Source of the DNA: Plasmodiophora brassicae
Taxonomy: Eukaryota > Endomyxa > Phytomyxea > Plasmodiophorida > Plasmodiophoridae
Reading direction: 5' to 3'
DNA length: 64,000 nt
NCBI GenBank assembly: GCA_039704465.1
Contig: JASFAU010000013.1
Coordinates: forward strand, 186,001 to 250,000
Notes under the pieces: model-generated
Told to the model about the DNA's origin: nothing
The model's input: the letters and a program-made list of their open reading frames with translations, nothing else
Database searches by the model: none
Translations under genes and position numbers: made by a program
In this document: positions 4,045 through 11,290 of the stretch, piece by piece
Layout: each line of letters starts with the position of its first letter
Position numbering within the stretch: position 1 is the stretch's first letter

Positions 4045-5048
4045 ATGAAACTGGCGCGAAAGTCTGACGTGGGTTTTGCGATGAGATCGACGTCGACGTC
4101 GAAATCGGGTGGGGGGGGGAGGGCGGGCAAACCCGGCGCAAAGCCGGCGGCGGCGGTGGCGGCAGTGCCCCGGCAGCGCCCGCGATCACGCCCGCAATGG
4201 GATGACTCCACACACGACCTGCCGGCCATGTACTCGCTGCCGGACTCGTTGAAGGGGTCGAGAGCGGCCGCGAAAACCGTCAAGTTCGTGCCGGATGCGA
4301 CGTCGACGTCCCCGTCGAAATTCGATCGCCTCCTGCAGCAGCGCGACCCGACCGGGCCGACGAAGCCGCCGACGCCGAAGGTCGACCTGAAGCGCCTGGA
4401 TGGCATCGCGAGCACCGTGGAGACGGCCGTCGCCAAACTGGAGCAGTGCATCGAACAGCTCGAGGACCGGTCGCACGATACGGCCGCGTTCAGGGCCGAG
4501 GTGCTTGGCGCGCTGCAGGACCTCAGGATCACCAACAATGAGCGCAACCGGGCGCTGGACGACCTCGCCCGCGACAACGTCCAGCTACGCGATCGGTCGG
4601 TGGACGCTGTGGCCTGATGGACACCCCAGCGCGTTCGCGCTTGCTGACCTGCGAGCACAGGGTTGACGGTCTGGCGACAACGCTGGAGTCGATGCAGCTG
4701 GAGCTCTCCCGTCTAGCGGACCGATCGGCGGCGGCCTCATCGACGCTGACGACGCAGAGCGTGCTCGGGCGAACGTTCACGCCGACGCCGTACTCGTACC
4801 CGGTCGACGATGTGCTTTCGGGCGATATCCGGATGCCTCCGGAGCAACGCGCCGCGTTCGAGCAGCGTTATCTGGACGAGGGCCGGGCGACCCGGCCCCC
4901 GGTTGTCGTCCGTCGCAGCACGGTCGTCAATGTGCCTGTCGGCGCGAGCAGGGCCTCGGCGCCAAAGTTCCAGCTCGTCAACGATGAGAACCTGATGCAA
5001 CCGATTCGCGTCCCCGTCACTCAGCGGGACGGGTCGCCCGCTCAATAA
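4045..5048 (+). CDS. Unrecognised coiled-coil protein, two exons
   Basis: Function unknown. Exons 4045-4595 and 4661-5048 join to 312 residues; the 65-nt intron (donor GTCGGT, acceptor GAGCACAG, CTGAC near the 3' end) makes the heptads run on without a break (QLRDR joined to VDGLATTLESM). Residues 1-60 are basic and rich in alanine and glycine, about 60-110 are rich in proline and serine, and about 115-205 form a long coiled coil (LEQCIEQLEDR, ERNRALDDLA). The C-terminal third is not coiled and has YSYPVDDVLSGDIRMPP. Start: first ATG, at 4045. It resembles structural cytoskeletal or axonemal adaptors only in composition. Left unspliced it would stop after residue 190. Confidence 0.6.
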
Positions 5049-5207
5049 TATCGGCAGCCGTGCCTGGTTCCCGCCTCCCCCGGTAGGTACGGTTGCACAA
5101 TACACGCCACGACCTTTACCGGCCGCGTCCTTCGGCACGCACACCAACGACAGTAGGGCATCGTGCCATGTGTATCGTTTAGTGCATTGTCTGGACTGGG
5201 CGGGCGG

Positions 5208-8200
5208 TCAGATCGTCATGACAGGTTTGGGGGTCGCCGTCATCGTCACGGAATGGCAGGCGACGACCACCTCGTGTTCGAAATCAACGTGGACGTCGAC
5301 GGCGTGGCTGTTGCCGTTAACCGTGAGCAGGCCATCGTCGCAGCCAGGCAGCACGCGAATCGATTTGATGACGAGCCCCGAATCGTAGCCAGAGGCGCGG
5401 GCCTTTGCCGACAGGCTAAAGGCGTAGACCGCCCCGTCGATATCCACGCGCGACGCCGAGTACTCGACGACCGTGTACTTCCCGTCCTGGATCGTGTTGA
5501 TCGAGAGGCCGTCGTCGAGATAAAGTTGACCTTTGGCGTTGCCGTTCTGGTCCAGCGCGACGTGCAGCGCGACAGGTTGTTGTCGTGCGGCAGCAATCGT
5601 CAACGCGACATCGGGGATGTACGGGATGATGGTCCCGCCGCGCTGGAACACAGGGATGACGTCGATGGGCGTTGGCACGGCAGATGACGACTTTGCTGGC
5701 CGCCCAGATGCCACGTCGTACCACAAACTGGACGCCGGTAGCACACAGGCAACCGACGTCGCTCCCTCGTACAGCTGGGGGCAGACCATCAGCGCCTCGC
5801 CGATCATGAACTGCTCATCCAACGCCCAGGTCGTCGGGTCCTTGGGGAACTCCAGGAACACTAGCGGACAGAACCGTCAGACTGAGACCTGTGCGAGGCG
5901 CCAGCATGAACGGCGTCGTTACCTGGTCGGGCGATGGCACCGCCGAACATGGCCGCCTGGGCGGCCAGCGTATAGTAGTAATGGTGCAGAGCGTACCGAT
6001 GAAGCAACGCGGCACGGGCGACCCGGCGCACGACCGGCCCGAGATTGTACCTGTCAGTTGTACCTGTCAGTTCGTCGTCGTGCCGCGCCATGGGCGAACC
6101 GGGCACGTCGCCGTACGCTTCCTGATGGACGTTGCTGTCCAGCGTGTTGTGATTGCGGGAGAATGGGTAGAATGCGCCCAGTTGGAACCAGCGGGCACAG
6201 AGCTCGACCGTGGTGTCGCCGGCGAATCCGCAGATGTCGGCCCCGACGATGGGGATGCCGAACAACCCCATCGCCAGCATCCCGCCGACGCTCTCGCGCA
6301 TGGACTCGAACGTCGAGTAGTTGTCGCCCAGCCAGTGGGAGGCGTACCGGCCCTGCCATATCTGTTAGCGACGCGCTGGCCGGCGTAAGCAATGCGCGAA
6401 CCGATCCAGGGAAGGTCGAACGCGTCAGGATAACGGCACGTGTGCCGCGGACGACCTCGAGGGCATGATGCGTGGCCATGGTCTGCAGAATCATTAGCGT
6501 GCACAAGGCGCCGACGTCAGGATGGAATGTCCCACCTCGTAGTGTCCAAACAGGTTATGCATGTCCAATTCATACGCACCGTTGTGATGCTTGACGGCCA
6601 TGCTGATGGAGCCGCAGTCGAGACCGTCCGACTTTCCGGTGCGGCAGTTGATCGCCCCATGCAGGGGACCCCTGGAGTTGGGAGACCAGGGGCGGTCCTG
6701 TGGGTATATGAGACGACGACCCTTGGCCGACGAGACCGCGTGCGTTGCGTACGACGTACCCATGTTCCAGTGTCGATCACGACTGAGCATTCGTTGCAAT
6801 CGGTGATGTCATCCGACAGGTTGGTTCGGGAATTGGAAAGCACGCACCGGCCGTCGCAGAAGTTGCTGGCTTCGTTCATATCGGTCCAGCTGACAGCAAC
6901 AGGTCATTTGTAGGTTCAAGCAGACAGTGAATGGTTCATACAGGCCGTCGATGGGGACCATCTCGTGGAATCGTCTGATGCTCTCGGTCCACCATCCTGT
7001 TGCGTTTGGATGCGTCCAATCCTGTACTCGTTGTTCAGATGCGACAGTGGCGAATCGCTCGAACTTATAACGTACCGGATAGTGAACCAGCCCCGGCCAG
7101 ACCTTGCCAACCAGGAACTCATCCTTGGTATATGCGTTAGGGATAGCGCGCAAGAAGACACTGTCGTCGACACCGTCCTGTGGGATTGCCAGTAAGGTTG
7201 GCCGTTCCTGACGTCGGATTCAGGTCTACCTTGTAAACGTCGTAATTGGGGTCGATCTTGACCCCAGGGTCAACAATGGGGATGTAGTGCAAGCCTTTCG
7301 CGTGAATTTCAGCTACGAAACCATCGAGTTAGGTCACGTCTGACGCTGGCGACACTTCTGCGCAATTTACCCAGGAAAGCCTGAAATTCTGCTTTGGGAT
7401 ACGTCTCCTCATTCAGAGAGAATACGCGATAGCCGTCCATGTAGTCCAAGTCATTCCTGATACAGAGGGTCAGCACAATTCCGAGATACCCTCGAAATGA
7501 GTTACCAGATCGTGTCGAGAGGAATACCAGCGGCCGAGTAGTTGCCGACAACGTCCTTCAGTGCTCCAAGCGTGTGGTACCCCCATCGGCACTGATGGAA
7601 TCCCAGGTTCCAGGCGGCTGGGAGCCCAGGACGACCGATCAGTGAGTGGTACTGCTCCAGGACATCCTTGGGCGTCGGCCCAGCGAAGAAGAAGAAGTCG
7701 AATACGCCGCCGACGAATCGATAGGTTAGGCTGTCGGTGCCCAGATCGACCTCCATCGGGTTGCTGGTCAACGCAAACACGCCATGGGCGGTGCCATCTT
7801 CTCGTAATTCCAGGTAGAACGGGTGGCTGCCATAGAGCGGTTTGTTAACGGGCGTGCCCTACGTTGCGCCATGGTCAGATGGCGATAGCGACGGGCAACC
7901 TAAACCTTTTGCGAGATCCGTACCTGATCCGACGCCATGAACGACCACGTCTGCCCGTAAGGAAGCTTCAGCGATGTGATGCGTTCCCCCAGGCCGAACA
8001 AGGCTGGGTTTTTCGGGAGCGACGTCTGCCAGCGAAGGTACCTGTCCTGGAAGACGAGGTCGCGCCCTTCGAACAGCGGGACGTCCGGGGAACCCTTCCG
8101 CTTGACGGATAGCTGAAAATCGTCCCCGTAGTTGATGTGGACGGACAGAAGAGCTTGCGAGGATGGAACCGGCGACTCGGGAAGGCCCTGCAGGACTCCT

Positions 8201-8460: not shown

Positions 8461-8834
8461 GGTGGCTTTGTGCACGGTAATGGACAAGTGCGGCGTGCCT
8501 TTGGTCCGCGTACACGCACGCGCACGTCGCCAACGGGGACTAACTCTGACGTACCGCCCCGTTGTAACACGTCGTCGCCCCCACGGACCCGGCCGCGGCG
8601 GCCACGCGCGCCCTGTGGCCTATTTCCGGACCTTGTGCCAAACGCCCGCAGCGCCAAACGCCACGTGCGAACTTTCGTGGCCGCGCACGCCGTCTCGAGT
8701 CGCCGCCACGACGCGGTCCGCACGGAGAATAATTGCGCGCGAAACGGGGGACACCGGACCACCATCCAACCCGGGCGGTTCCTGGAGTGCGGTGGGCAGG
8801 ATGTCGCGTTTTATTATTCTATTGCATCGGCGAG
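8461..8834. other. Intergenic gap upstream of GH31
   Basis: A 374-nt gap between the stop of the TH1-PTEN gene and the start of the GH31 gene, both on the minus strand. No gene is seen; it must contain the GH31 promoter. No clear TATA element was recognised. Confidence 0.4.
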
Positions 8835-11290
8835 TCATATTCGTTTGTTGGCGGCGGCTGCGGCTGCCCGCAGGGTGGCGTTCTCCTGCTTCAACTGGTC
8901 GTTCTCCTCGCGCAGCTCGTCGACCTGCAGGCTGAACAGGCTGTTCTGGTTCTGCAGGTCGAGGCGCAGCGTTTCTAGGTCGGCGATGCGCTGCTCGAGG
9001 CGCTCGACTTTCTTGGCCAGCTCGGCATCCTCTGCTGTCGTTCGAAATCAATGTGTTGTACGGCACACTGCCTCCCTGTTAGGCTACACACCTTTCGTTG
9101 CGTTCAGCACCAGGTCGTCGTCCTTTTCGACTTGCGCTACGGCAGCGTCGTCGGGCCTGAAGAACACCTCGACGGCAAAGTCCGGATCGAACTTCTTGTG
9201 GTCCCGATCTTTGTGGGCTTTGTCAAGCTGGGCGAGAAGCGCGCGGTTAACGATGTGTTCCCGAATACCAAGCGCATGGCAGGAACCTCGAATTTCTCCA
9301 ACTTGATATAGTTGTGCTCGATGAACGACGTGTTTAGCCAAAAGTGAAACATTGGCGTGTCGAATTTGTACTGGTCCTGGTCAAAGAACTCTGTTGCCAT
9401 CTGCCGGTGAGTAGGACGCTGGCAACGCCGCTCACACGCTTCTGACCTAACTTCACGTTGCCGCGGACGTGCACTAGACAGGTCAGGTCGACGCCCTTGT
9501 CGCCGTTTTTGTGTTGAATCTTGACCGACTTCCTGGAATCAAAGAACTGTGTACCCGTACCGTTAAGCGGCAGCGATCGCAAGAACGATTCGAGCGCCCT
9601 TACTCTCTCTCCCGCGGCATTGGATGCCTTGAAGTACGGATTGCACCCATTATCGCCACCGAACCGGGGAGTTGAGGCCAGATGGATATTGGTGATAACC
9701 AGGGGGACCCCAACGAAGGAGAACGGTTTGTCTGGGCCATAATAGTCTCTCAGGAACCGTTCGAAGTAGAGGCAGAACCGGCGTTGTGATGGGATCGTGA
9801 CACCCTTGCCGTTATGCGTGCGCTTGCGGCCAAAGTACCTGCTCCGACAGTAAGCAGAAGACGACCACTAAGTAACAGGAATGCGATACTCCAGAGCCTG
9901 TTCGGCTGTCGGGAACATTTGCGAATACAAGAGGAAGCAGGACAGCATCAGTCCTGATCCCGAGAGAGAGTGGTCAGCGGATTCCGATTTCGCAATCCAT
10001 ACCTCTGGAGATACCTGTACGACCCTTGCCGGCCTTGCAGTGAACAGCTGCTACGTTCCCTGGTGTTTTTAGCCACGACGCGACGTTCCGGCAGAATTCC
10101 AAGATGATGTCAATGTTCGGAACGTTGTGATCCTCGAAAGGGAACAGAGCGACCCGTCTGTGGAATTTGGACGGTTCGTAGGTCCGCTCAGAGCACAGAT
10201 TGTAAACCTTGTATGCGCCGGCATGTCGCGTCTCCAGAAACCGGTATACCTGGGCGGCATCGTTCAGGAATGTCAAGCACAACTCACCGGATTGAACCTC
10301 TCACCTCTGAAAATGGGTTCCTAGACAGACACATGCACTGTTAGCGGCAGAACGGCAATGTACAGTCGCCCAACGGCACGCACCGATAGATTCCATCAAT
10401 GTCATCGCTGGGGAACCCCATTGCAATTAACCGATCCGTGATGTACGTCAAGTCGAGGTCGAAATCGTCCTGCTGGTAGCGAACCTGTTGCCGCTGTCAC
10501 GACCTGGCCGACGGCGCCAGCTTTAGACTCAAACCTTCTTCTTCGACACCAGGCAGCGGATCTTCTGCGTCAGTCCAGTAGCGTTCATCGGGTCCTTCGA
10601 TGCGGTCGGCGATCGTGCCATAATCCGTTTTCGCAAGGCATCGCCCGTCTTGTGCACCATGATCAGCGCCATATTCTTCGTTTGTGAGATTTCGGCCTCC
10701 AGCTCGCGACCCGTCTTGGCCTGGAACACCTCCGCCAGCGTCCTGATAATTTCGCCCCGTCTGTCAAACCGGCGTTCAGTGTCCAGGGCGAGTCGCGAAC
10801 GACAGTCGATGAGAGGGCACCTTAATGAACTGTACCAGTAGTCGTATTCGCCATTAACGTGGATGACGAATTCGGGGCTGGAGTCGGACAGGCTCACAGA
10901 GCTGAGGTGGTCTATCGCGATGACGCGCTTGATCGTGTAACTTTGCGGCTTCATGTTCAGGATGACGGAATTCGTTATGACCAGGACGCGGTCCTGGGCT
11001 TTGTGCCGGCGGTTCAACTTGGTGACGTTGCCGCTGAAATGGATCTTGGCCGCGGCGTCGCTCGCAGCCTGGATTTGCGACATGACGGCTGGCATTTGGT
11101 CGATCTGCAAGTGGTCACGACGATCCCTCATCTCCAGCGACAGCATTAGGCGCTCCGCCTTCGTTCGCTGCATGTCGCCTTGAGCGTCGTCATCGCTGAC
11201 AACAGAATCGAATTCCTCCTTGTCGTATGGAACGCTGTCGTCCAGCTTGTTACCGCTGCGTAGGGACGACGCGGACACTGCCGACATCAT
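8835..11290 (-). CDS. Myosin-I TH1 domain fused to PTEN phosphatase-C2 and a C-terminal coiled coil
   Basis: PTEN removes the 3-phosphate of PtdIns(3,4,5)P3 at the plasma membrane; TH1 domains bind acidic phospholipids. Ten exons: 11290-10821, 10760-10535, 10493-10384, 10320-10305 (16 nt), 10249-10015, 9953-9890, 9838-9457, 9400-9287, 9227-9092, 9031-8835. All phases close to give about 649 residues. Residues about 80-200 are TH1 ([44 protein letters not shown]). PTEN begins near residue 220 ([17 protein letters not shown]), with the P-loop [10 protein letters not shown] and GVTIPSQRR. The C2 domain has [10 protein letters not shown], then LDKAHKD and [11 protein letters not shown]. The last 60 residues are a leucine-zipper-like coil ([10 protein letters not shown]). 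The TH1 and PTEN parts share exon 10760-10535 without a stop. The ATG at 11290 is my choice; an ATG internal to the shared exon (DPMNATG) could yield PTEN alone. No myosin motor is present. Confidence 0.85.

Follow-up and report, generated by a model that had tools for sequence, protein, structure and literature searches.

RESULTS

A TH1 domain and PTEN share one reading frame

The stretch of DNA analysed here, called the window throughout, covers 64,000 nucleotides of the Plasmodiophora brassicae genome (C13:186001-250000, in an assembly of 25.3 Mb and 21 contigs). On its minus strand, at 11290-8835, it holds a gene whose product joins a TH1 domain, known from myosin tails, to a PTEN-type phosphatase and a predicted C-terminal coiled coil. 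After correction, the gene comprises 11 exons (11290-10821, 10760-10535, 10484-10384, 10320-10305, 10249-10015, 9953-9890, 9838-9604, 9546-9447, 9390-9287, 9227-9092 and 9034-8835, the last ending in TGA) and encodes 628 amino acids; its ten introns are all GT..AG and 50 to 63 bp long, and every join preserves the phase. As an initial annotation made from the letters of the window had proposed, exon 10760-10535 (minus strand) is stop-free and carries the end of TH1 together with the start of PTEN (LVSKKK) in a single frame. Because both domain edges lie in this one exon without a stop, the TH1-PTEN fusion is independent of splice choice. The annotation was also right that phase is kept through the phosphatase, the C2 domain and the coiled coil, but it overlooked an intron inside C2 (9603-9547, minus strand, 57 bp, GT..AG, stop-free and phase-neutral), whose translation is not contained in the public record P0001. 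The annotation also put one acceptor in the wrong place: intron 2 runs to 10485, not 10494, and the resulting join of SKKK to VRYQQ matches PTEN and P0001. An in-frame internal ATG, formerly put near 10570, was located at 10588-10586; it is followed by the LVSKKK motif (10535..10588, minus strand) and is a possible alternative start as judged from the sequence.

The best protein match was P0001 of P. brassicae, 958 residues long, which showed 97% identity across 100% of our first, 646-residue query; the corrected 628 residues are identical to its C-terminal 628. The extra 330-residue N-terminus of P0001 (11291..12681, minus strand) is probably a separate upstream gene. It gave a weak match to WSD, perhaps of chromatin type, at 19.8 bits, under the cut-off of 25.4, and its AlphaFold model is mostly of low confidence except for a helix at 243-295. 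In 29 of 31 relatives TH1 begins no later than residue 77, and in the remaining two it begins at residues 152 and 160; in P0001 it begins at residue 373. On the strength of the WSD score and the TH1 position we rejected this N-terminus as part of the TH1-PTEN protein, though it is not disproved, and P0001 is probably two genes merged in annotation. The source name of P0001 carries '(mitochondrion)' although the protein is intron-rich and of nuclear type, probably a labelling error at the level of the record.

That P0001 seems to have absorbed an upstream gene means that automatic models here can be chimeric, and the TH1-PTEN architecture itself might then be a gene-model or assembly artefact in which neighbouring genes were joined through chance splice choices. 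We consider this very improbable, and largely refuted for the architecture, since the TH1/PTEN join falls within one exon rather than at a splice, and the same domain order is seen again in further assemblies and in two proteins derived from transcripts (see below).

The TH1 domain keeps the lipid-binding positions of Myo1c

The Pfam scan, run on the 646-residue version with the C2 intron still included, identified Myosin_TH1 (PF06017) at residues 57-186 (10673..11122, minus strand, interrupted by intron 10820-10761). The score of 69.0 bits (E 5.6e-19) clears the cut-off of 31.1, disposing of the concern, raised with the initial annotation, that TH1 might score below threshold. The match spans profile positions 11-149 alone and not all 185. 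In the AlphaFold model of P0001, ten-residue confidence means are 88-97 across residues 391-510, which hold TH1, and lower at its edges, and the domain is predicted to fold like the TH1 of the Myo1c tail, that is, as a PH fold. An alignment of a P. brassicae model to the Myo1c structure 4r8g gave a meaningless 39-Å result and was discarded.

According to PMC4852769, Myo1c requires K892 and R903 for binding phosphatidylinositol bisphosphate (PIP2) and for arrival at the membrane. Using the distance between these residues to place the numbering on the Myo1c sequence, we found that both equivalents are kept in the window protein, and that among its relatives the lysine is kept in 22 of 29 and the arginine in 25 of 29. 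Both positions are also present in 6/6 P. brassicae TH1 domains compared, as well as in all 15 of the TH1-AGC kinases compared (16 were found; see below). The phosphoinositides bound by class-I myosin TH1 domains include PI(3,4)P2, PI(4,5)P2 and phosphatidylinositol trisphosphate (PIP3), as given in PMC12676778. With the binding positions kept, the TH1 domain of the window protein may likewise bind acidic phospholipids. The Pfam scan of the protein gave no Myosin_head, and the 49 Myosin_head matches found across the genome all fall outside the window.

The PTEN part looks active and ends in a predicted coiled coil

The phosphatase P-loop (residues 341-350; 9952..10042, minus strand, in exons 5 and 6 and split by intron 10014-9954) contains the catalytic Cys, the Arg and both Lys, and the equivalents of WPD-loop Asp92/His93 (in FEDHN) and TI-loop Gln171 are present as well. 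D92, H93 and Q171 are kept in 32/32 TH1-PTENs; the compared rows were chosen by the pattern HCK[AS]G[KG]GR, which makes P-loop counts circular, and such counts were not used. PTEN_C2 (about residues 416-544; 9147..9705, minus strand, containing introns 9603-9547, 9446-9391 and 9286-9228) scored 88.6 bits against a cut-off of 27.1 (E 3.7e-25). With these residues in place the PTEN part looks active, and it would be expected to act as a PIP3 3-phosphatase. Ahead of the phosphatase, the basic motif VSKKKVR aligns with VSRNKRR-type motifs and is putatively PIP2-binding; VSKKKxR occurs in 25 of the 32 TH1-PTENs and variants in the other 7. The initial annotation had suggested that TH1 replaces or strengthens membrane recruitment. 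Since the basic motif is kept, we rejected replacement, and it is more likely that TH1 supplements the recruitment provided by PTEN itself. At the N-terminus, Pfam gave no match to a voltage-sensor domain up to E 1.

The C-terminus is predicted to form a long helix or coiled coil (about residues 561-628; 8838..9098, minus strand, across intron 9091-9035). The corresponding AlphaFold helix lies at P0001 residues 891-957, with ten-residue means of 59 at its start and 82-91 thereafter, and the tail of the window protein shows a heptad pattern (p 0.02). In a rough heptad test, in which the tail was defined by a constant distance from the P-loop, such tails appeared in 21/32 TH1-PTENs (27 long enough, five near-copies) versus 6/126 TH1-less PTENs (75 long enough). 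Judging from the modelled helix and the heptads, the coiled coil probably dimerises the protein. The last intron ends in a tandem CAGCAG acceptor (9037-9032, minus strand), of which P0001 matches the first CAG (9035), and alternative use of the two could yield proteins with or without one alanine.

TH1-PTEN proteins are conserved elsewhere

Relatives were collected from the best 120 matches of each of two protein database searches, giving 159 distinct proteins. Precomputed Pfam domains combine TH1 with a PTEN-type phosphatase in 27 of these, 26 of them with PTEN_C2. Co-occurrence of PF06017 with PTEN domains, which the initial annotation had put forward as a check, is found in 26 listed proteins besides that of P. 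brassicae. A profile built from 16 TH1-PTENs detected TH1 in 32/159, always N-terminal to the P-loop. Two of these relatives, P0012 and P0047, come from EukProt under Trinity transcript names, and a repeat scan reconfirmed their domains; being transcript-derived, they place TH1 and PTEN on one mRNA there. The TH1-PTEN-coiled-coil protein is real and has conserved counterparts elsewhere, and its catalytic and lipid-binding residues are retained.

These relatives bear on the view that the locus yields two genes or isoforms, with translation of PTEN mostly starting at the internal ATG (10588) and TH1 ending up in a minor product or in one of its own. In favour, this ATG is in frame and followed by an N-terminus resembling that of an ordinary PTEN; in addition, exon 2 read unspliced reaches a stop right past LVSKKKV, so that a retained intron would make a TH1-only protein. 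However, one open exon with no stop between the domains spans the join, and TH1 stands ahead of PTEN in the 26 other listed proteins, including the two from transcriptomes, which makes this view quite unlikely. The objection that TH1 and PTEN might sit on separate transcripts is thus answered by the transcripts of P0012 and P0047, not by RNA of P. brassicae.

The TH1-PTENs tied to named organisms are those of P. brassicae (Endomyxa) and Amorphochlora amoebiformis (Cercozoa), both Rhizaria; the remaining ones come from metagenomes or transcriptomes, and we do not claim a restriction of the family to Rhizaria. For a tree based on the PTEN part alone, we used 141 of the 159 proteins, excluding those that had no HCK[AS]G[KG]GR pattern or that were TH1-less with two copies of it. 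In this quick search 31 of the 32 TH1-PTENs fell into one group with a Shimodaira-Hasegawa-like approximate likelihood ratio test (SH-aLRT) support of 93; the group also holds one TH1-less protein, P0030, from a 1607-base contig. Outside it lies P0155, which has a TH1 score of 30.3 bits (cut-off 31.1) and a DEP-like stretch that separates TH1 from PTEN, and which may be a second, separate fusion. Pairwise distances in the TH1 half correlate with those in the PTEN half (r 0.74, p 0.0001, 30 rows). Most likely, the fusion arose once, early in Rhizaria or before, predates the split of Phytomyxea and chlorarachniophytes, and was then mostly inherited as a unit.

TH1 is also joined to an AGC kinase

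Elsewhere in the genome, TH1 occurs in one ordinary class-I myosin (contig C6) with adjacent motor exons and an SH3-like stretch judged by eye. Besides the window gene, there are four further TH1 genes without motor matches on their contigs. In one of these, L014 (2472-4263, minus strand, contig C3), a single exon encodes TH1 and an AGC kinase in 529 amino acids, with Pfam scores of 70.7 bits for TH1 and 239.1 bits for the kinase, the latter having S6K, Akt and SGK as its nearest solved structures. A search with its TH1 alone gave 16 proteins among 1239 candidates, and Pfam found TH1 and kinase in 16/16. Thus, the TH1-AGC kinase is a second conserved TH1 fusion. Two more loci, L016 (1643-4769, minus strand) and L017 (about 4330-6800, plus strand), on contigs C14 and C8, continue from TH1 into PH stretches and hold a part resembling class III nucleotide cyclases, one of them also RGS- and FYVE-like stretches, all judged by eye except PH; by this inspection of the sequence, TH1 is apparently joined to cyclases as well. 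At L015 (about 4150-4650, plus strand), TH1 exons lie downstream of a coiled-coil-like stretch with no motor nearby.

Six more PTEN_C2 matches were seen in the genome (L008-L013), with an adjacent P-loop for L008, L010, L011 and L012. None of the six has a TH1 match beside it, and PH matches lie upstream of L010 and L012. Two PI3K-RBD matches adjoin PI3/PI4-kinase exons on contig C5, which makes a source of PIP3 plausible. We did not see a PH-bearing Akt: none of four Pkinase_C matches lay near any of 67 PH matches, a test that an intron-split gene could escape.

Downstream of the TH1-PTEN gene, a possible polyadenylation signal, AATAAA (8810..8815, minus strand), lies 20-25 bases past the stop codon. 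The neighbouring gene at 8460-7900 (minus strand) opens with a signal-peptide-like stretch and, judging by a motif, putatively encodes a glycoside hydrolase family 31 enzyme.

DISCUSSION

We propose that the window protein is a PTEN-family PIP3 phosphatase in which an N-terminal TH1 domain serves as an added phosphoinositide membrane anchor, a reading to which we assign a probability of roughly 70%. It builds on the observed architecture, conservation and kept residues and on the predicted fold, from which we infer lipid specificity, catalysis, dimerisation and cellular site. TH1 would hold the enzyme on membrane bearing PIP2 or PIP3; docking by the basic motif, phosphatase and C2 of PTEN would follow, and PIP3 supplied by class-I-type phosphoinositide 3-kinases of the cell would lose its 3-phosphate. 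Two membrane-contact sites, TH1 and PTEN's own motif, would thereby act in series, and the coiled coil, probably pairing two copies, would bring together two TH1 domains and raise avidity. Such an enzyme would work without a phospho-tail switch, having a coiled coil in place of the phospho-regulated tail and PDZ ligand of animals. The weakest step would be a link to actin-rich membranes, because the PH-like TH1 is present alone, without motor, TH2 or SH3.

Several observations weigh against this reading. The internal ATG could produce a TH1-less form. In a tree of the TH1 part, the TH1-PTENs do not separate cleanly as a single group (5 changes), the two myosin rows sit at the same unresolved fork, and without near-copies the correlation of TH1 and PTEN distances is weak (r 0.28, p 0.007, 25 rows). 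By the heptad test, the coiled-coil signal is absent in the Amorphochlora protein P0050 and its kin P0042. The mean charge of the N-terminal motif is slightly lower in TH1-PTENs (3.97 in 32, versus 4.44 in 108 TH1-less PTENs; p 0.0008, uncorrected for kinship), and that of the loop of the third calcium-binding region (CBR3) is more acidic (-1.97 in 31 versus -0.18 in 108; p 0.0015, likewise uncorrected). Many TH1-less protist PTENs have an acidic CBR3 too, so a compensation by TH1 is unsupported, and we rejected an acidic CBR3 as a hallmark of TH1-PTENs. TH1 itself stops short of the final fifth of the Pfam profile, and one or both lipid positions are lost in some relatives, including P0012, P0021, P0029, P0031, P0072 and P0124. 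This C-terminal truncation, the loss of the K892 or R903 position and the retention of PTEN's own membrane motif would also fit a TH1 that acts as an intramolecular or protein-binding module, such as an autoinhibitory cover or a scaffold contact, instead of a lipid anchor. We regard this as unlikely, since the lysine and arginine are kept in the window protein, in most relatives, in the TH1-AGC kinases and in each of the six TH1 domains compared from P. brassicae.

As a proposed membrane-anchored enzyme, the window protein can be set beside known systems. Compared with human PTEN (7jul, 1d5r), it adds the N-terminal TH1 and the C-terminal coiled coil and has an acidic CBR3 loop. The tail of animal PTEN carries a serine/threonine phosphorylation cluster and a PDZ ligand; that of the window protein has neither. 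With the Myo1c tail (4r8g) it shares the predicted TH1/PH fold and the K892 and R903 equivalents, whereas it has no motor, IQ, TH2 or SH3, and its TH1 is N-terminal and truncated. PTENs bearing a PH domain (for example P0071, P0105 and P0106, for which PF00169 is listed, and perhaps L010/L012) likewise place a PH-fold lipid module on PTEN, but theirs is an ordinary PH and not TH1. Voltage-sensing phosphatases such as Ci-VSP and TPTE2 have the PTEN catalytic-C2 part in common with the window protein. In these enzymes an N-terminal membrane module is added to the PTEN part; it is a transmembrane voltage sensor, unlike the module of the window protein, in which Pfam matched no such domain. TH1-PTEN is, in this sense, a PTEN with an added lipid module, alongside the PH-bearing PTENs and the voltage-sensing phosphatases.

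A paneukaryote survey of myosins handles TH1 as a myosin tail domain and samples one rhizarian (PMC3942036). Searches across 5.39 million open papers brought up no title or abstract that describes TH1-PTEN, a scope outside which most subscription papers fall. The claim that no such protein had been described agrees with that literature, but such proteins are already in public databases with their Pfam domains computed. For annotation, TH1 by itself should not mark a myosin.

PTEN is among the best-studied enzymes, and its regulation depends centrally on membrane targeting. In the TH1-PTENs, evolution seems to have met this need by drawing on a module familiar from myosin tails. With this family, nature provides a test of whether a lipid-anchored and probably dimeric PTEN functions in the absence of a phospho-tail switch. 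To our knowledge, PIP3 signalling in Rhizaria has been little studied. Animal Akt uses a PH domain, and a TH1-AGC kinase alongside TH1-PTEN suggests that the PIP3 pathway has been rewired; it makes the question of which module substitutes for the Akt PH in Rhizaria directly testable. More tentatively, and at odds that we put somewhat below even, TH1 in Rhizaria may have come off the motor to become a shared phosphoinositide reader on TH1-PTEN, TH1-AGC kinases and apparently cyclases, replacing the Akt-type PH. If this is true, both arms of the PIP3 pathway, the phosphatase that removes the lipid and the kinase that could respond to it, would be steered by the same lipid module.
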